Shown here in pieces: positions 10,264 to 33,643 of a stretch of 33,643 nt of DNA. A program made the position numbers and the translations under genes. Numbering within the stretch: the first letter of the stretch is position 1; every line of letters begins with the position of its first letter. The notes under the pieces were generated by a model. The model saw only the letters and a list, made by a program, of their open reading frames with translations. It was not told the DNA's origin and made no database searches. Origin of the DNA: Chromera velia (taxonomy: Eukaryota; Sar; Chromeraceae); NCBI GenBank assembly GCA_018398765.1, contig JAHBMJ010001238.1:1-33643 (forward strand), written 5' to 3'.

Positions 10264-13200
10264 TCATGCACGGAAGAAGCAGAGCAACACGGTAAAAACG
10301 AGTAAAAAAAAGAGCATTACCGCCGCAAGGGAGCCCCCAACCACATACACTGCATTTTCATCATGTTCGACCCCCCCCAGGCTCACATTCATTCCCAGGA
10401 ACCCAGTCACAAGACCGGCGACACCAAACACGATACCCACAAGGGCAGCACCAAGTTCAAAGAATACCAGACGGTTACGAGCAACAGCCAGACGGAGCTG
10501 CATTCCCGTCTCCACATTCCCGACTGTCCGCGCAACCCTTCGAACTTTCAGTCGATTCTGACTCAGTTCCCCGTCTGCAAATTCAAGCACATGAGCCAGA
10601 CTCATGGGAGCAGACTCGATACCCGCCTCCCTCATCCACCTCCGTGCCTTCTTTGTGATCAGACCGTCCGAGTCTAGCATCTGGGGATTGGCCCTCTTCA
10701 GAGTCAGCTGCATGCTCCAGAGCTCCTTTCTGTCAGAGAGGACCTCAGAGACTGCACGAGAGGAGGCCTCAAGACGGGCTTCAAGACAAGCGAGAGGTTC
10801 CCTCAGAGTGCCTAGGGCCTCGCAGTCAACCGCACTCACCTGCAGGTCGACGCAGGGGCAGAGAGAGCATGTGTGTCAAAAGAGGGTGTCAACACGGGAC
10901 CAGGAGAAAAGGTCACGAAGTCACTAGCAGGGGGAGCAAAGGGGGGGTTAGACAGACTGTATGGTTTCTTTCCCAGACTGTCACAGCAGGGTGGAGAGAA
11001 GGAAAAAAGGATGAGACAAACGTAAGAAGGAGAGACCGAGAGAAGGAGAAAAGGAAAGGGCCAGATGGAGTGAAAACGTGGAGAGAAAGAAAGGGCTCCA
11101 TGCAGAACAATGAAACAAGGCAGGCAGATGAGACTGACAGAGTGCGAACGCCTCGCAAGTCTATACGCAAGTTTCTCGTGTCGGTCTCTCAAACTCGCCA
11201 TTTCCCCCGCTACATCCCCCAGCATCGCAAGGACCAAAATTTCAAGAATGGCTGTCTCTAAAGGAACCACCCTCGGCCGCCTGTGTCTACTCCCCCCCTC
11301 ACTTCCACATGAGGATACAGAGTGATTCATGGCTGGGGGTGGGGGAGAAGGAGATGCAGCTTTGTTCGAATCTTCCACCCCCCCTTGGTGTGTCTCCTCT
11401 TCGTGCTCTTGCACGTCCTTTTCTGGTGAATCTCCCTGGCCCTCTGAAGGACGAGGGGGGGAGAAAGAGGAAGCGAGATTTGCCGATAGAGCGGGAGGAG
11501 CTTCCTTCTCAATGAAGGCACTCACAGGCTGCTCTTCTTGAAGTTCTCTCCCCTCCCCCGACTGCTCTTCTCCTTCTCCCGTCTCCTCCTTTACCGTTTC
11601 TTGAGATGCCACTCTGCTTTCAATTTGCACCCCAGAAGACGCAGCCAGATCTTCAGCTAGCCCCCTGACTTCTCTGTGAGACTCCTCTATGGAGGGAAGA
11701 GTCAGAAAGGGACTCGATCGATGCTCGGGGAGACGCGGACGCGTGCTGTGAGCAGCAGCAGAAGAAGAAGAAGAGACACCCACTCCACCCTCCTCGACGA
11801 GTCCTGCCACGCTCTTCCCTCTGCTCAGATGCAGAGCTCGACTCCAACCTCCTCTCAAAGCCAAGCTCGCAGAACTAATACTTCTCTCACCGCCTCCCCC
11901 CTCCCATTCCCCTTCTTCCCCCACTTCCACTCTTTCAGTCCTCCTTCTCCGGAGAGAGCTCTTGACTGAACGCTTGATGCGGGAGGCTAGGTTGGGTGCC
12001 TGGCGCTTTCCTCCCCCCAGAACGAGTCCATCGGAAGATTTGGACTTCGGAAGGGGGGGGCACTCGTCCTCTAGGGCAGAGGTGGAGCGTCGCGTTCTTT
12101 GGGCGGGGTCGGTTTGTGAGTGCTTTGGTTGGGTATTCAGAGAATCTTGATGGTGCAGGGAGGAGCCGCGGGCGGTGAAGAAGGAAGTCTTTCTTCGATC
12201 TGGTGTGCCGAGGGAGGCGGAGGAATCACGGGGAATGTTGGCGAGGGCCGTAACGGGCATGCGGGCTGCTTCGATTCTGCTCAACTGTCTGGAAGCTGCC
12301 ATCAGTTGCCATGATTTCGCTAGCTTCTTGGCAATCTTCTCACGCATTTTCAGTGCCTTTGCATCTAAAGACAAAAAGTCCGGAATCCCCCCTGACTTCG
12401 CGTCTGATAAACCTGAGCTTGAAGATTCGTACGTCTGATCAGAGTCACTGCTGGACTCTGTGTCCGCTCCCGTGACAGGCGGAACCTTTTCCAGAGGGGC
12501 TGCTGAGTCAGTCAACTCTAGTCCGTCTGCGGTTGTCGCTGCAGATTGAAGAGGTTTGAAGGAGGGCCTCTGGCTTTCTGAGCCTGAGGAGGGGGGGGGA
12601 ATCTTCGGAGGGGGGGCTGCAGTCTTGGCTGCAAGTTTCTGTAGGAGGTCGTCGGACTTGTTGCAAAGATCCGAATTGAAAAGGAAAACGCGGTCATGGA
12701 GAATGATGGCATAGACAGGGTAGATGCACATGATCACACACCCACTCCGACGGACGAGGAGGGCCTGCATATATGCAGCAAGAGGGAGAGAGGACAGTGA
12801 GAGGGAGAAAGAGCACAAAGAGGAACGAGGACCAAGGCAGGACCGCTTGGGGGCACAGGAAAACGAAGTGCTGGCACTTGGTAGGATTATGAGGGGCAGT
12901 GGGACACTGCAAGGGAAGGAAGAGAGCCGAAATCCGCAAAGCAACGGAAGGCGCAGGGCCCAGACAACTAGGCGTAGCTCCTGGGACCTCGCGGGTGCCC
13001 AACTGACGCGTTCAGGCTCAGGCGTCCAGATTCCTCTGATATCTCTGTAGCTGATCCTCTTATCGTCCCCATCACCCCTTGAATGGAGATGCCGTAGGTC
13101 CTCCCCTCGACTGTCGCTTCTGTGCCCTCCTTCGTTGTGATTATGGTGATGGTGGTGTTTGACAAAGCTGTGATGGAGGACCTCCTGCATTCAAAAGGGC

Positions 13201-14006: not shown

Positions 14007-14717
14007 ATGGCCACAGTCGACAATTCCCTTGCCGCAACTGCTGTTGCTCCTACTCCTGAGGCTGTGGAGATTATGAAGAGGCCCTCTTCTCTGGAGCAAG
14101 AGAATTACAATCCCTTCATGCACGCAGCGTGCAGTAGTGCTATGGCAGGGATCACGTTGAAACACGGAGGCCCTTTCGGTGCCTGCATTGTCAAGAATGG
14201 AGTCATGGTGGCGGTAAGTTGGTTCCCTCTGGCTCGTTTCCTCGCTCTGTTTAAGCGCATCAAATGCATACGCGAAAAACTTTATGCTTCTTTCAGGTTG
14301 CCCACAACATGGTCCTGTGCAACTTGGACCCCTCCTGCCATGCTGAGATGACCTGCATCCGGGCTGCCTGTAAGGCTCTGGGCACTCACGACCTCTCCTG
14401 CTGTGAACTCTACACAACCTGTAAGTCCAAAAAGGGAGCCAATAAGTTTCGCTTTGGGCGTCACCTTGCGCCCGGTCCGTTTGGTGGCTGACAAGGAAAA
14501 TTCACCTTCCCACTCCGCTCTGTGTCCTGCAGGCGAGCCTTGTCCCATGTGCTGGGGTGCTGCGAACTGGTCAGTGCCTTTTCCGTCATTCTTGCTGTCT
14601 CGATCACGGGGTCTGCACGCTGCGGTCTTGGGGACTGCATGGGCAGTGTGGGGGAAACAGTTTGGCTTGCCGTGGGTTGGGGGTGACTTCAAAGCACAAT
14701 TTAGCGATTTGTCGTGT

Positions 14718-14749
<32 letters not shown>

Positions 14750-14750
14750 T

Positions 14751-14782
<32 letters not shown>

Positions 14783-14965
14783 TTCTTTCTTTTCTTCTTT
14801 TCTTTCTTTTCTTTCTTTTCTTTCTTTCTTTCTTTCTTTCTCCCTTTCTTCCTTTCTTCCTTTCTCCCTTTCTTCCTTTCTTCCTTTCTTCCTTCCTTTC
14901 TTCCTTTCTTCCTTCCTTCCTTTCTTTCTTTCTTTTCTTTTCTTTCTTTTCTTTCTTTCTTTCTT

Positions 14966-15009
<44 letters not shown>

Positions 15010-15484
15010 TTCTTTCTTTCTTTCTTTCTTTTCTTTCTTTCTTTCTTTCTTTCTTTCTTTTTTTCTTTCTTTTCTTTCTTTTCTTTCTTTTCTTTCTTTT
15101 CTTTCTTTTCTTTCTTTTCTTCCTTTTCTTCCTTTTCTTCCTTTTCTTCCTTCCTTCCTTTCTTCCTTTCTTCCTTTCTTTCTTTCTTCCTTCCTTCCTT
15201 CCCTTCCTTCCTTCCTTCCTTCCTTTCTTCCTTTCTTCCTTTCTTCCTTCCTTCCTTTCTTTCTTTCTTTCTTTCCTTCCTTCCTTCCTTCCTTCCTTTC
15301 TTCCTTCCTTCCTTTCTTCCTTCCTTCCTTTCTTCCTTCCTTTCTTCCTTTCTTCCTTCCTTTCTTCCTTTCTTCCTTCCTTCCTTTCTTCCTTTCTTCC
15401 TTTCTTCCTTTCTTCCTTTCTTCCTTTCTTCCTTTCTTTCTTTTTTTCTTTTCTTTCTTTTCTTTCTTTCTTTCTTTCTTTCTT

Positions 15485-15521
<37 letters not shown>

Positions 15522-17189
15522 CTTTTCTTTCTTTCTTTCTTTCTTTCTTTCTTTTTTTCTTTCTTTTCTTTCTTTTCTTTCTTTTCTTTCTTTTCTTTCT
15601 TTTCTTTCTTTTCTTTCTTTTCTTTCTTTTCTTTCTTTTCTTTCTTTTCTTCCTTTTCTTCCTTCCTTCCTTTCTTCCTTTCTTTCTTTCTTCCTTCCTT
15701 CCTTCCTTCCTTCCCTTCCTTCCTTCCTTCCTTCCTTTCTTCCTTTCTTCCTTTCTTCCTTTCTTCCTTCCTTCCTTTCTTTCTTTCTTTCTTTCTTTCC
15801 TTCCTTCCTTCCTTCCTTCCTTTCTTCCTTCCTTCCTTCCTTCCTTTCTTCCTTCCTTTCTTTCTTCCTTCCTTCCTTTCTTTCTTTCTTTCTTTTCTTT
15901 CTCTCCCTCTCTCTCTCTCTCTCTTTCTCTGTCTCTCCTCCCTCCGAAGAAATGTTCCCATTGATCTTCAATCCTTCGTATTCTGATCATTTTTCTGTTT
16001 GATCCAGGGCCCGACTGAAGAAGATCCACATCGGTGCCACGAGAACCACAGCAGCCAAGTACGGGTTTGACGACGAATTCTTCTACCAGCAGATTGACCT
16101 GCCCCACCACGAAAGGGCAATCAAGCACATGATGAGTGTGAACAAGGAGGACTGCAAGAAGGTAGGCAAGTTTGGGGGGGCTGTGCGATTCGGAAAGAAA
16201 GGGACGTTGAAAATACTTGGTGGTGGAAGCGAGGGGGGAAAATTTCTTTCAATGTCCTTTGGTCAGTACTTCTTGAAGTGAACCACTTGCGCGAACAGGA
16301 ATTGTCATTACTGCAGTGCCTGTCAGAAGAGTTTCAAGCAAAACTGCTTATTTACAGTTCATCTAATACTGAATTCAGTCGAAGACGCACAAAATTGAAG
16401 TGCATGATGGCACGCGCTGCCTGCCTGCAGGTGTTCGAGGAGAGCAACACGTACAAGCGCCGTATGAAGAGTGGCCGAGGGCTGATGGCCAAGATCTATG
16501 AATCCCTTTTTGAAGAGGACGAGGCGAAGGTGGAAGTGAAGGACGCAAAGAACGAAGACGGCACTGACCACCTGCACGAACTTGCACACGGGGATTTCAT
16601 GAAGGTCAGTCAGGCGTCGGGGGAGAGCAAGAGGAGTTGTTTGTCTGCATGTACGCGTGTTGTGTGACGTACCCTTACCGTGCTTGCCTTTCGTACCCCC
16701 GCGACCATCTTTCTCTTTCCTTGTTTGCTGGTTCCTTTCTTCTTCCGTATCTGCTCTCTCTCCATGTGTTTCTCATGCCCCCCCCGCGGATGTGCAGGCC
16801 GCCGTCGAGGCAGCCGAGGAGGGGCAGAGACTCGGGGAGTCAAAGGAGAGGGAGCCGTTCGGGGCCGTGGTCGTCAAGGATGGGAAGGTTCTCGCTGTCA
16901 GTAGATCCAAGAGGGAGAGGAAGAGAGGGAGAGATAACCAGAAAGATCAGAAAGAGAGTGATGCAGGGAGAGATACAGACACAGCGCGAGGGGGGAGGGG
17001 TCGTTTTTTTCGCCAATTTTGCTTATCCGATGCGTCTTCAGCTCCTTGTTGTGTTCGTTTGGGGGACCACAGTAGCTGCTCGAAGGGTCGACTTCCGCCT
17101 CGTAGTCGCTGAGTGTCAGCCCGAATGCTGCGGAGTCAATGAGGTCTTGTTTCTGCCACAGCCCGTTCCCCCCCCCCCCCCNNNNNNCT

Positions 17190-17220
<31 letters not shown>

Positions 17221-18053
17221 CTTGCGTGCAGTCTGCGTACAACACCGTTCTGAAGGATGGAGACCCGACTGCAACTGCTGAGGTGAGTTTTTTATGTGAT
17301 CGGGGGGGCGTTCTTTTCTTCTGTCTGACTGCTCTCCCTCCATCTCTGTTCTCTCTGTTTTGTGGGCCATTCCCGAGCGCTCATAGGCTCTTGCTCTTTC
17401 ACATGCACTCACTCACACAAAGACGGCGCACGCATGATTTGACGAGCCAGAAAACAAAAGCGCGCGCACATGTTGCAGGTCAACGCCATCCGGAAGGCCT
17501 GCAAGGCTCTGGGAACGTACAAACTCGACGGGTGCGCCCTGTACACGACCACGGAGCCTGACCCGATGTCCCTCGGGTGCATCTACTGGGCGAGAATCTC
17601 GGAGCTGCACATCGGGGTCTCCCAGAAACTGGCAGCCGCTTTCGGATTTGAGGATGGCCTCCTTCACTATAAGGTCGGTCGGTCTGGGGAAGAGTTCTGT
17701 TTTCACACAGATGCTTGGAGTCGATATTTTGATTGTCCTCCTGTTCCTTCTATCCCACCTGCCTTTGCTGCTGTTCTCCATTATTCTCTCCTCTTTCCCC
17801 TTCTCCCGCGATACATCTTTCTCTCATCCCTCACCCACTCACCAATACCAGTTTACGGAGCCCCTCTTTCCTTTGGCCGAACCCTCACGCCCCTTGGGGC
17901 CCTCCCCCTTCCTGTCCTCGTCTACATGCTTCCTTGCAGGAGTTGGAGTGCAATCCTGAGGAGCGCTGCATCGAGACGGCATATGATGTGATGCACGATG
18001 AGTGCGAGCGGGTGTTCCAGCAGTGGCAGGCAGGGCAGGGAACCATCTACTAA
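14007..18053 (+). CDS. Two-domain guanine/guanosine deaminase-like protein, second domain zinc-dead
   Basis: Nine exons: 14007-14213, 14297-14420, 14533-14569, 16008-16161, 16431-16604, 16798-16896, 17232-17282, 17479-17673 and 17940-18053 (TAA). All have GT-AG borders and sum to 384 residues. Domain 1 has GGPFGA, then HAE (His84, Glu86) and CEPCPMC (Cys114, Cys117), the full zinc and proton-shuttle set of the cytidine-deaminase fold. The later FDDEFFYQQID resembles bacterial guanine deaminase GuaD. Domain 2 (from about residue 233) repeats EPFGAVVVKDG, DPTATAE and EPDPMSLGCIYWAR, so His is Thr280 and both Cys are Asp310 and Ser313, while Glu282 remains. A charged linker (about 175-232) joins the domains. 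Domain 1 likely hydrolyses guanine or a guanine nucleoside; domain 2 is probably structural or regulatory, as in deaminases with an inactive partner. Confidence 0.9.
14719..15945 (+). repeat. Pure polypyrimidine microsatellite (TTTC/TTCC/CT) in intron 3
   Basis: About 1.2 kb of only C and T on the plus strand, made of blocks of TTTC, TTTTC, TTCC and CT. It lies wholly within intron 3 (14570-16007) of the deaminase gene. Block order repeats at a larger scale: the CT block at about 14967 recurs at about 15486, and the CCCTTCC irregularity near 15200 recurs near 15713, a period of about 515 bp. The long Phe/Ser/Leu and Lys/Arg/Glu open frames on both strands are artefacts. Confidence 0.95.
17171..17221 (+). 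repeat. Poly-C run, six-base gap and (TG)n repeat in intron 6
   Basis: A C homopolymer is followed by six Ns (17182-17187) and a TG dinucleotide run close to the intron 6 acceptor. The Ns mark an assembly gap of unknown true size and do not touch an exon. Confidence 0.9.
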
Positions 18054-22850: not shown

Positions 22851-24217
22851 TCAGGTCCCCCGTTTCCTCACTCCCCCCTTCCTCAACCCCTTCATTCCCA
22901 CAGACATATCATATGCATTATCCAGCACCTGCTGTAAACTCAGCAACTTCGAGGGCAGCAAACGGAAGCGCACCGTGCCCTTCAAACCAGACGCGCGGAC
23001 CCATCTCGAAAAAACAGAGGAGTAGAAAGAAGTGAAAAGATGAAAATCAACAAGAGGCAAACGAACAGAAAAAAGCAAACTCTTTCCGAAGTCCTTCACT
23101 GACCAACCATAAAGCTCACACAATCTACGTACATTGAAGTTGAAAGTCGCCCTGCTGCCCTGTCTCACTCCAGACCTTGGAAAAAGACGGTAGCACGCAT
23201 GCAGATAATCTTTCTCAATCATCATTCTCCTCAACTCACCATCAGTGCGCCGTTTCTTTGAGAGGAATACCAGCAGCAGAGACCGGTATACGTATGAGCT
23301 TAAGCTCCCCCTCCCCCCTTTCCCCCTCTCTATCTCCTTACCCCTCTTTTCCCCAGACCAACTCACCTGCCCACAAGAATCTGAAACATCAGCAACCACA
23401 CAACACCTACTCAGATAGGGGGGAAGATTCGTATTTCGAACACCTCCTCCGTTTCCCTGCACTGAGTTTCTCACTGACATGAAAGCTTTCAACTGGTCAG
23501 CACATACAGTGACTCCCCCACCCCGCCTTCCCGCAATCCGACCAGACCTTCGCCTGCCCTGACCCTCACTCGCCTCCCCCCCTTTGTTTCTAGGGCGAAG
23601 CACCAGCGACGTTTCCCCTTTCATCTTCCTATTCACCCCTGCAGTGTTCCAGGCAGGCATAAAAGATCGTATACACGCCATCTCTACATCCCTCAAATCC
23701 TTGTGCGTTCCACTTACCACTGCAAGAGGAGTAATCATAAACAACGCATGCCGAGTCATATCAGACGATAAAACAGAGTAAATTTAAAGTGATGAGCATA
23801 CTCCCTGCCAAAAGTATTAGACCCCCCTCTTCCACTGGTAAAGTAACGAGATGCCGCATACAGATGCTGCTTGAACCTGCCAACCACATCGTCCACCGTA
23901 CTACCAAGATAAAATCCTCTCTTCCACGACGACCATATCATATATATAATATGCTTACTCCATAGGTCGGCCCGACCACCAAAAGATTCATAACCCCGTC
24001 TGACTTCCCTCAAAAACTTCGAGAAACTTGACTCAGACAACTCTAAAAAACTCCCAGCAACCATGCTATACAGGTTTGTCACCCTCTCTAACATCCATGT
24101 GCTGCACCTCCTCCCCAGCACAGACCGAGCACGAGAATGAGAACATTCACTCACATCTGGAGATGCAGGAGAGAACTGAAGTGAGTAAGAAGGGGGCTGC
24201 GATGAGTGTATGTGCAA
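22851..24217 (-). pseudogene. GIY-YIG endonuclease part of the retroelement, one frameshift
   Basis: Two overlapping frames (24217-23756, then 23759-22851) join into one domain. The first has IIYMIW (the GIY position), GFYLGST (YIG) and VVGRFKQHL with the conserved Arg, at about 23860-23950. The second has DVEMACIRSFMPAWN, the conserved Glu and the P-x-x-N end of the fold. The switch at about 23757 is a one-base shift in otherwise continuous homology. After the nuclease comes a basic, Gly-rich segment and then a region I cannot assign, perhaps the RT fingers. GIY-YIG nucleases of this type nick the target to prime reverse transcription. Confidence 0.65.
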
Positions 24218-24897
24218 CGTAGTCGAAACATTAAAAATATGTAAAATAAGCTTTTCATACCATAATCAAAGTTGTTTTTTGACTTGTTTAAAACCTTAGT
24301 CTATCATTTGTTTGAAAAAAATTGACAATTCTAAGAGCAATCTCTGTATAAAAATTATGAAATGAATAATGATTATTATCATTAATGAAAAAATGACTAA
24401 TGATTATCAAAAGTTCATAATCATTATTGAAATTTATAATCATTACTTGCTTTAACATTGAATTAACCCATTGATGTGTTCATAAATTTTTTAAAAGCTT
24501 TATTTTATATCTTAGAAAGGCTGTCTGCCGCTGTCAGGCTCTAAAGTTTTTTGTGTAGAATTAGTACACACTTTGGACTTAAAAAATTTGTCTAAAATTA
24601 TTGCACACTAATTATTACACACTTTTATGTGTAACAAGGGGGGGGTCACGGGTAATTGTTACACATTTAACTTTGTATACTAGTTTGTGTAACACTACAG
24701 GATTGGTGTATAGGGCCCGTTGGAAGAATTAGTAGAATAAATTCAATAGTATGTATATATCATGTATTCTGAAAGCGGGACTGTACATCACATTCAAATT
24801 ATAATTTAATACTATTGAACAGTGTTTTAAATTAATCATGCATGAAAGCAAGTTTCAGAAATTTAGACTAATTCAGACTTAGAATGATCAATTAACA

Positions 24898-30783: not shown

Positions 30784-33643
30784 CTACTTTCTCTCTCTTT
30801 CTTGGGCTCTGTCTAATTTGGCTTCAATTTCGGTTACAATTGCATTCAGAGCCTCTCGATCTGCTCTTGTTTCTGTGCATTCAGTCAGTCGGTGCAGTAG
30901 ATCATCTGCTTTGCCCCTGTATGTAGGGCAAACCGCGTCTTCCAGCCCTCTGTACGGTGCATGAGGGCAACCACCAAGCAACATATTATACAGCAAGGCT
31001 GAAAAAGGGCCTGAGGACCAGATCGCAGCGCGAGGGAGGGAAACAAAACGGGGGGACGAAGGGAATGAAAGAAAAGTAGAGGAAAGGAAGAGGAGAGACG
31101 AACGTTGGGCAATAGGATAAGATGTGTGGAACACATTCGGTCGGACGCCTCTGCCAAACTGCAAAACCGCCCCCCGTGAAGCGGCCCTTTCTAGACAACC
31201 ATCAATCCATTCATTAACTTCCCGGTTGATCACTGCTCTTAAAAGAAGAAGACGGCCAACCTTGGTGGCTTTCTTTCTTCTTCTGATGGTTGGATTGACA
31301 GTCATAAATTCTTTCAATCCGGTCGACCCAATCAATTTTTGTGCGTGCATCATAGAGGAAGGACAATCACCATTTATTAAAGCCGACCAGGCACCCGCGG
31401 GCATCTTGAAGTCAATATGTTTTAAGTTAGCCAAATACCCAGCAAGTCTCATCAACACATGCACATGTGCAGGAAGTAGACTAACAGCACACAGAGTAGG
31501 TATACGGAAAGAGGAGAGAGACAGATTCAAAGCCTAATGGACAAAGCGCAATTGAAAGACATCTAATGCATCCATGTGTGACTTGCGGACAGGCAGACAG
31601 TCAAACGCGTATAGAGCAACAGGCAATCAGAAAGCGCATAAACATAAAATCTTTGCTGCGGGGGGCAGGCGACCCAAAGAGAGTGCCACGCTCTTTGCAT
31701 GACCCATCCATCTACTCGCTATGCTAAGCTTCTCTTCTATTACCTCCCTCAAGTCTCCCCTTTCGAACAAAAGAACACCCAGATACTTATACGACCCCAC
31801 TCTCTCGACTTCTTTTCCTCCAAAGTTTTAACATAAACCTGCCTTCAATTGCAGGGTAAGAGTCGGACAGACGCATGATTTTTATCTTTTTTAAATTAAC
31901 AGTGAGCCCTCTCTCTTCACAGAAAGAATTCAATTCATTCAAGCTGACCTGCAGGTCATGCACACCCTCAGCAACGAGGACAAGGTCATCGGCATAACCA
32001 AGGCTATCGCACTCAACCCTACCGAGCAGAACCTCTACACGACCGGAAGCCTTTACTCTTTCATGCAGATCATTGATAAAAATCAAGAAGAAAAAAAGGG
32101 AGAGAGGATCCCCTTGTTTCACCCCTTTCTCTTCCTTGAACATAAAAGGGCTGCCAGTGATGCTTCCGTTCATATTTGTATACATTGCCCGAATCATTTT
32201 AACATCGACTGCACTCACCCCTTGCTTCAGCAAAACTTCAAACAAAACATCCCTGGGCAGGGAGTCAAAGGCTTTGCTGAAGTCTACAAAGTATGCTAAC
32301 AAGGGCTTCTTTCGTTTCTTTGCCTTTTGCATCAGCGCAGTAAGTGCTCCAATGGCTTCTCTTGTTCCTACCCCTTGCTGAAAACCCAACTGCCTATGGT
32401 TAATCTTCAGTTATGATGTAAGACGGGCAGAGAGGAGTGAAGAAAAGAGTTTTGGTAAGAGTGAGACAATATGAATCGGACGACATTCACCAGGGTCGGG
32501 GGAAAGAGGCCCCTTTGGAACCGGACAGATTTTAATTACATTCTATTCATCTTGCCAAGCGGATGTCAAGTGAATTAAGTTTAAATGGATAAATAACAAA
32601 GCACGAGAAAGAGGCGAATATTGAAAGCAGAGGGAGAGGTGGTTAGAGGCAAGTCCGGACAACCCTGCAGCCTTTTCTTCCTTTGTGGACTGGAGGACTT
32701 TCCTTATTTCTTCTATGCAAAAATAAGGGTGAGACAGAGAGATTGGTGGGGGCAAAGGGGGAGAGTGAATGCCAAAGGAAACCTGATGAGAGTAGGTATG
32801 CAGTTGCGAAAAAACGCCAGGGTGCAAAGAAGAGTTAAAAACGGGCGGGGCTGGCTGCGAAGGAGGGAAAGGGGGAGCACTTTCTTGTGCAGATTCCCTG
32901 CCAGAGGGAGAGTCAGCGAAGATAGAAGCCCAGTGACAGGAAAAGTCCTTTACTGAAGGCTGGGAACCAGGAGGGGCTTTCTCTCTATTGCTTCTTTGCA
33001 GCTTTCTTCTCAATGACCAGACCTTTGAAGGGTTAGAGAACAATTCGAGTGCAACTTTTTCTGCACAGAGCTTTTCGTACGCCTTTCTTTTCCTGTTGTG
33101 CAATCGCTAATATCTGCGGGCCTGCCTCTCAACCGTCTGTCTTAAGGCAACCACGTTTGCTCTGCTGCTCCCACTTCTCCCCTCATTCTCACATGATTGC
33201 ACAAGTTTGTTCAACGCCTTCCTTGCTTCCCTCCAAAGTGTTACTGCTTCCTTGCATTCATTATCAAACCATTCGGCCTTTTTCTTTTGTCTCACTTTTT
33301 TTCTGCCCTGTTGACCATCTAAATCCTTCTGCTTGATTTCTTTTGTCAGGCCGGCCAACGTGGTTTCCCATTCCTTCAGCAGTAACTTTTCCCATTCACA
33401 GAAAGACAAGGGCACCGGTTGCTCACATGAGTTGGGAGCAGACAGTGGGGGGGAGGGAACGGATGGAAAAGAAGAGAGATTAATGTTTTCAGCTTCACAA
33501 GCCATTTTCACAAGTCCAGGCCATAACTGTTCAGCCAATTGACTAGCTGCTGCAGCTGAGGGGAGAAGCTCTTCGTCTGAGACAGGAGTGGATCTGATGG
33601 AGCGATGAAGGGGGGGGATAGGTAAAAGGGAGTTCTCTTTGCT
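30784..33643 (-). mobile_element. LINE-type non-LTR retrotransposon, decayed ORF2, open at window end
   Basis: The minus strand carries one reading frame from the window edge to about 31800, then one shift, then a frame to TAG at 30786-30784. In order: KKAEWFDNECKEAV (common just before LINE RTs), CPVPKG, LKINHRQLGFQQGVGT, FVDFSKAFD (motif A, near 32270), GVKQGDPLS (motif B), LGYADDLVLVAE (motif C, near 31990), SYKYLGVLL, and a C-terminal CPTYRGK..LLHRLTEC, a degraded CCHC knuckle with the second Cys replaced by Tyr. In-frame stops lie at 33107, 32543, 32411, 31627 and 31534. The endonuclease and ORF1 would be beyond the window. It is inactive as read. Confidence 0.88.

Follow-up and report, generated by a model that had tools for sequence, protein, structure and literature searches.

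A fused two-domain gene of the GuaD/GSDA deaminase type in Chromera velia with one zinc site per chain and a putative composite active site

Gene organization

The window analysed here is the whole of a 33,643-nucleotide stretch of DNA from Chromera velia (GenBank assembly GCA_018398765.1, contig JAHBMJ010001238.1, positions 1 to 33,643 of the forward strand), and its subject is a gene that encodes two fused deaminase domains of the GuaD/GSDA type (guanine and guanosine deaminases). An exon model was built by homology and splice signals. The resulting open reading frame lies on the + strand, runs from the ATG at 14007 to the TAA ending at 18053, comprises nine exons with GT-AG at every border and encodes 384 residues (Table 1). 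The start, the stop and the sequence details given in a first-pass annotation, which had been made from the letters of this DNA, were found to be correct. The fusion point lies within exon 5, which codes for the domain 1 tail region as well as for the beginning of domain 2, so that the fusion is independent of linking two gene models over an intron; an arrangement as two separate genes is disfavoured on this ground. A 6-base gap of Ns (17182-17187) falls within intron 6. Just after the exon with the CPMC motif, intron 3 holds about 1.2 kb of a TTCT-type simple repeat (window 14717-15902).

Table 1. Exons of the fused deaminase gene and its repeat-rich intron (positions in the window)
Feature	Positions	Strand	Residues	Content
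Exon 1	14007..14213	+	1-69	N-terminal extension, then the beginning of domain 1; last residues GVMVA, phase 0
Exon 2	14297..14420	+	70-110 and base 1 of codon 111	Zinc ligand His84 (14339-14341), Glu86
Exon 3	14533..14569	+	Remainder of codon 111 to 122	CEPCPMC; zinc ligands Cys114 (14541-14543) and Cys117 (14550-14552)
Intron 3	14570..16007	+		1438 bases, largely TTCT-type simple repeat
Exon 4	16008..16161	+		Remaining core of domain 1, with FDD (equivalent of GuaD Asp114)
Exon 5	16431..16604	+	175-232	Domain 1 tail region (VFEESN...), now a linker without the family Trp/Tyr; the first domain 2 helix (HGDFMK) follows
Exon 6	16798..16896	+	233-265	Domain 2; RE aligned to GG of the GGPFGA loop, preceded by a 3-residue insert; ends GKVLA, phase 0
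Exon 7	17232..17282	+	266-282	Domain 2; TAE; Thr280 (17274-17276) replaces the zinc His; Glu282 retained
Exon 8	17479..17673	+	283-347	Domain 2; IRKACKALGTYKLD block; TEPDPMS, with Asp310 (17560-17562) and Ser313 (17569-17571) replacing the zinc cysteines
Exon 9	17940..18053	+	348-384 and stop (18051-18053)	Tail of domain 2, RVFQQWQAGQGTIY, which includes the family Trp and C-terminal Tyr384 (18048-18050)

Classification of the domains and zinc site

Both domains matched PF00383 (expectation value (E) 3.5e-20 for domain 1 and 8.7e-20 for domain 2), and the top solved structure for both was 1wkq, the guanine deaminase of Bacillus subtilis (E 3.6e-39 and 8.3e-36, respectively), values which exclude chance as the source of the domain assignment. 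With the PF00383 fold and a best match to GuaD or GSDA, both domains belong to the GuaD/GSDA family, a part of the cytidine deaminase superfamily. In the solved-structure search a chain labelled deoxycytidine deaminase (5jfy) followed close behind GSDA in score. (Note that the top NCBIfam match was TadA, with 51.4 and 65.6 bits against a cut-off of 150, and that the only models offered were those for TadA and RibD, all under the cut-off.) Identity was 63/161 between the two domains and 67/148 between domain 1 and the B. subtilis GuaD; domain 2 is nearer to GuaD (73/148).

The His-x-Glu / Pro-Cys-x-x-Cys zinc site is present in domain 1 (HAE, residues 84-86; CEPCPMC, residues 111-117), whereas the corresponding segments of domain 2 read TAE (280-282) and TEPDPMS (307-313), which leaves one zinc site per chain. 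Thr280, Asp310 and Ser313 stand in place of the ligands, and Glu282 is retained. The earlier claim of a fused pair, in which one domain has all three zinc ligands and the other has none and keeps its glutamate, is thereby borne out. The ligand codons CAT, TGT and TGC of domain 1 compare with ACT, GAC and TCC in domain 2, with five differences at first and second codon positions. A stray sequencing error is implausible in view of these differences, and sequencing error as the source of the zinc loss was rejected on the basis of multi-base codon differences at three places.

Relatives and conservation

The searches for relatives covered bacterial genomes, viral contigs and, among eukaryotes, this genome alone. 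The set used comprised the best 80 of 579 confirmed stretches in bacterial genome contigs and 41 loci (35 distinct) in viral contigs; the patterns used for fetching tolerated Thr at the His position, and the two Cys positions were left out of them. His53, Cys83 and Cys86 (GuaD numbering) were invariant in the bacterial (80/80) and the viral-contig relatives (41/41), and no zinc-less GuaD domain occurred among these 121 loci. Each locus consisted of one matching open reading frame with a single domain, and a two-domain frame was found at none of the 121. Among the bacterial genomes searched whole (296 + 299, with matches in 80 + 18 of them at 85 + 18 places), no two matches lay in one frame at the cut-offs used. 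Domain 2 alone as query on the viral contigs yielded two loci, both on contigs that had been found earlier. A fused GuaD pair was not found in the titles and abstract openings of the papers listed by literature searches, a scope that mostly excludes the subscription literature. The sequence observation is confirmed and the protein is real and unusual; the annotation had known of no described guanine deaminase with this layout, and no counterpart appeared among the bacterial and viral-contig relatives fetched or in the literature searched.

Of the 45 columns with 90% or more conservation among the bacterial relatives, domain 2 retains 36 (36/42 when the ligands are set aside) and domain 1 retains 38. 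Outside the zinc site domain 2 is conserved to much the same degree as domain 1, in agreement with the earlier statement that the rest of it is well conserved. Regarding the 44 columns with less than 50% conservation, 14 are retained by domain 2 and seven by domain 1. The gradient between the two classes of columns is therefore 86% to 32% in domain 2 (ligands set aside) versus 84% to 16% in domain 1. Besides the ligands, domain 2 is changed at columns 23, 24, 48, 80, 89 and 106; domain 1 is changed at columns 48, 51, 52, 58, 90, 106 and 147 and at the column of the terminal Tyr.

C-terminal tail

A feature that the first-pass annotation had overlooked is the tail: the C-terminal Tyr of the family is kept by domain 2 and lost by domain 1. 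Tyr stands directly before the stop in 109 of the 121 relatives, that is in 79/80 bacterial and 30/41 viral-contig loci (25/35 distinct). In the sole bacterial exception (L047) the tail contains Ns. The 11 viral-contig relatives without a terminal Tyr score at most 94.9 bits; two equally low-scoring loci (L128 and L129) do have it. A further 40 bacterial homologues, all of them different from the first 80 across the last 100 residues, ended in Tyr in 39 cases and had the zinc motifs in all 40 by a loose pattern test; the single GuaD-like frame among them without a terminal Tyr (L178) ends in Lys. The aromatic residue upstream in the tail is likewise conserved in the bacterial relatives (Trp 74/80, Tyr 5/80, Phe 1/80).

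Domain 2 ends with RVFQQWQAGQGTIY directly before the stop and thus has both the family Trp and the terminal Tyr384, with a spacing one residue shorter than in bacteria. In domain 1 the Trp and Tyr columns are both occupied by Ser, and the chain continues into the linker. The losses are complementary: the zinc-bearing half is without the tail Trp and Tyr, and the tail-bearing half is without zinc.

Comparison with known deaminases

In the B. subtilis enzyme GuaD, Tyr156 of one subunit recognises the substrate in the other subunit. The title of the GuaD structure paper calls the enzyme domain-swapped. GuaD (PDB 1wkq, 1tiy) and domain 1 share the zinc site and the equivalents of Glu55 and Asp114, which are described as proton-transfer residues in the consulted part of PMC6582222. 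GuaD is a single-domain enzyme which forms a dimer with two identical sites, whereas the Chromera protein consists of two fused domains, one of them without zinc ligands.

The Arabidopsis guanosine deaminase AtGSDA (PDB 7dbf and others) is as near to domain 1 as GuaD is (56/111 versus 57/111 core residues). An assignment of domain 1 as a guanosine deaminase, on the grounds that AtGSDA was its nearest match (51%, 112 columns), was dropped, GuaD being equally near over the same core. Guanosine is on this account as plausible a substrate as guanine. Excerpts of two papers describe the tail of plant GSDA: that of one subunit enters the active site of the other subunit (PMC12133300), and its C-terminal residue, Tyr185, contacts N7 of the substrate, the free carboxylate of Tyr185 being required and the N7 contact being lost in Tyr185 mutants and in tail truncations (PMC9739398). 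The second excerpt also reports crystals with one tail in and the other out, and it describes the helical interface of the dimer. AtGSDA is a single-domain protein with a zinc site in each monomer and with 'in' and 'out' tails in different monomers, whereas the fused protein has one zinc site.

The annotation had likened the pair to Tad2/Tad3. The paired catalytic and pseudo-catalytic logic of that comparison stands, but a closer analogue is provided by the E. coli-type cytidine deaminase. The chain of this enzyme consists of a core in duplicate, of which the C-terminal copy is without zinc. This layout, which defines the E. coli type, recurs in the Chromera protein, where two domains are fused and the zinc site is intact in one of them and broken in the other. 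The E. coli-type enzyme acts on pyrimidines and belongs to a different family; its label was absent from the 46 + 27 solved sequences listed, among which GuaD and GSDA matched best. According to the excerpted text of PMC6686228, its 'broken active site' supplies residues to the site of the other monomer. ADAT2/ADAT3 is a catalytic and pseudo-catalytic deaminase pair that is attributed to duplication in the excerpt of PMC7713142, where the yeast Tad3 pseudo-site is described as retaining zinc and a zinc-ligand double mutant as insoluble. This pair comprises two genes, has a tRNA substrate and has zinc in its pseudo-site, whereas the fused protein is the product of one gene with a zinc-less pseudo-site. 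The ADAT3 pattern, in which zinc is kept and the catalytic Glu is gone (the Val at this position of ScADAT3 being deduced from the mutant name V218E in the same excerpt), is also not that of domain 2, which keeps the Glu and loses the ligands.

Origin of the fusion

Internal duplication is a candidate origin of the two domains, on which two trees differ: one unites them (SH-aLRT 87, with long branches) and the other does not. In the approximately unbiased test neither a clade of the two domains (p 0.41) nor a grouping of domain 1 with AtGSDA (p 0.23) was rejected, and the bootstrap did not settle the matter. A phase-0 intron is common to both domains, the end of exon 1 and the end of exon 6 falling in the same alignment column, which favours duplication; by a rough estimate (4 x 4 introns, about 450 positions) the probability of a chance coincidence is a few per cent or more.

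Proposed composite site and alternative explanations

The product of the gene is probably a purine deaminase of the GuaD/GSDA type in which the two fused domains share a single composite active site, a mechanism derived from the comparisons above. On a slightly favourable balance, the chain may be a swapped-tail dimer that was fused and split into a zinc half and a tail or lid half, each of which is missing what the other retains. The complementary loss of the zinc ligands in domain 2 and of Trp and Tyr in domain 1 suggests that the tail of domain 2 completes the site of domain 1. There is a single free C-terminus per chain, so no more than one of a chain's zinc pockets can be closed by a terminal Tyr; given a tail that works in trans, as that of GSDA does, the pocket closed would be that of domain 1, which retained zinc. 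In the proposed mechanism the two domains, from the same chain or from different ones, would associate as the subunits do in the GuaD or GSDA dimer. The free tail of domain 2 would reach into the domain 1 zinc pocket, and Tyr384 would there hold the purine and seal the site while guanosine or guanine is deaminated. With the domain 1 tail turned into a linker, a free terminal Tyr would no longer have been available to domain 2, and the zinc ligands of domain 2 would have been free to go. The reciprocal site would thus have been abandoned from both sides, with domain 2 left as a dedicated scaffold and lid, and the asymmetry of tails in and out that certain GSDA crystals show would in this protein be fixed at the level of the gene.

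The annotation had proposed a non-catalytic role for domain 2 in a built-in catalytic/pseudo-catalytic pair. The pairing is supported, and the role may be refined to one in which the domain 2 tail completes the domain 1 site; Tad2/Tad3 does not hold as the nearest parallel. The candidate new element is a terminal tail acting in trans together with reciprocal loss in the two halves. The principle that a broken deaminase site aids an intact one is already known from E. coli cytidine deaminase (PMC6686228, in the part consulted).

Several points weigh against a composite site. The Trp-to-Tyr spacing is seven residues in domain 2 and eight in 79/79 bacterial tails, and because of the shorter spacing Tyr384 aligns beside the Tyr column and not in it; among the 29 viral-contig tails with a matching pattern, 12 do have a spacing of seven. 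The GSDA mutant Y185F is described in the excerpt of PMC9739398 as partially active, with ligand binding about that of the wild type in one assay, so that the Tyr is not strictly necessary in GSDA. Domain 1 is altered at 8/46 conserved columns, of which six lie outside the tail. The linker has roughly 50 residues, and its reach is an assumption of the composite-site model. Finally, the equivalents of Asn42, Glu55 and Asp114 are retained in domain 2, and an abandoned pocket need not retain them.

The survival of these three residues leaves room for a ligand-sensing role. Domain 2 would then be a regulatory sensor with purine-recognition residues and no zinc, which binds guanine, guanosine or a nucleotide and exerts allosteric control on domain 1. 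Such a role is considered unlikely: the partner-tail Tyr that the domain 2 pocket would need is absent from domain 1, and in domain 2 the GG of the GGPFGA loop is aligned with RE and accompanied by a 3-residue insert. Slightly less probable still is a purely structural dimer partner that stabilises domain 1 and whose tail is irrelevant. The overall conservation of domain 2, the helical dimer interface of GSDA and the tail spacing, one residue off the bacterial rule, are all consistent with it, but it leaves unexplained why Trp and the terminal Tyr are retained in exactly the zinc-less domain of a family whose tail acts in trans. Of much the same low standing, if slightly lower, is the view of domain 2 as a functionless, decaying copy in which loss of the frame is still to come, as the loss of 3/3 zinc ligands might indicate. 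The exons of domain 2 are, however, free of stops and frameshifts in the gene model, five base changes fall at the ligands alone, and the 36/42 strongly conserved non-ligand columns retained, with a gradient like that of domain 1, speak for continued constraint. That the locus yields two separate proteins, through retention of an intron or from a start codon inside the gene, is very improbable: a retained intron 4 would add a short open frame up to a stop after domain 1, and in-frame Met codons exist in exon 5, but the fusion lies inside that exon, the splice borders are all GT-AG and in frame, and the retained-intron product would end in GQYFLK and not in Tyr.

Should the composite site exist, the gene would be a natural experiment on why GuaD/GSDA-type deaminases close each other's sites with C-terminal tails, in which the zinc half has been split from the lid half by complementary loss and each function would be separately testable. 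It would also represent a further route, besides that of the E. coli-type cytidine deaminase, from a deaminase pair to a single asymmetric chain, as well as a domain of the deaminase fold that manages without the zinc which, judging from the excerpt of PMC7713142, yeast Tad3 could not spare.

Genome context

The same assembly contains an apparently single-exon, canonical nucleoside-deaminase-like paralogue (contig C808, locus L016, 3736-4248, + strand) with HAE and PCLMC and 38% identity to domain 2 over one stretch. Exons of a urate oxidase are also present, as is one exon matching PF20256, the molybdenum domain of xanthine dehydrogenase/aldehyde oxidase. Near the end of contig C65 (locus L200, 276-389, - strand), the exon PGFIDLHIHAPQYSYTG gave a sub-threshold match (28 bits) to TIGR02967, the amidohydrolase type of guanine deaminase, which it resembles. 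In view of this exon it is not claimed that the genome has no guanine deaminase besides the fused gene.

Upstream of the deaminase gene, a 784-residue open frame without a Pfam match at E 0.01 occupies window positions 10836-13190 (- strand). A reverse transcriptase domain (PF00078, E 2.8e-25) lies at 31787-32410 (- strand), and a weak GIY-YIG match (PF01541, E 6.8e-5) is located 7.5 kb from it on the same strand, at 23756-24265. These two matches may be pieces of a Penelope-like element.

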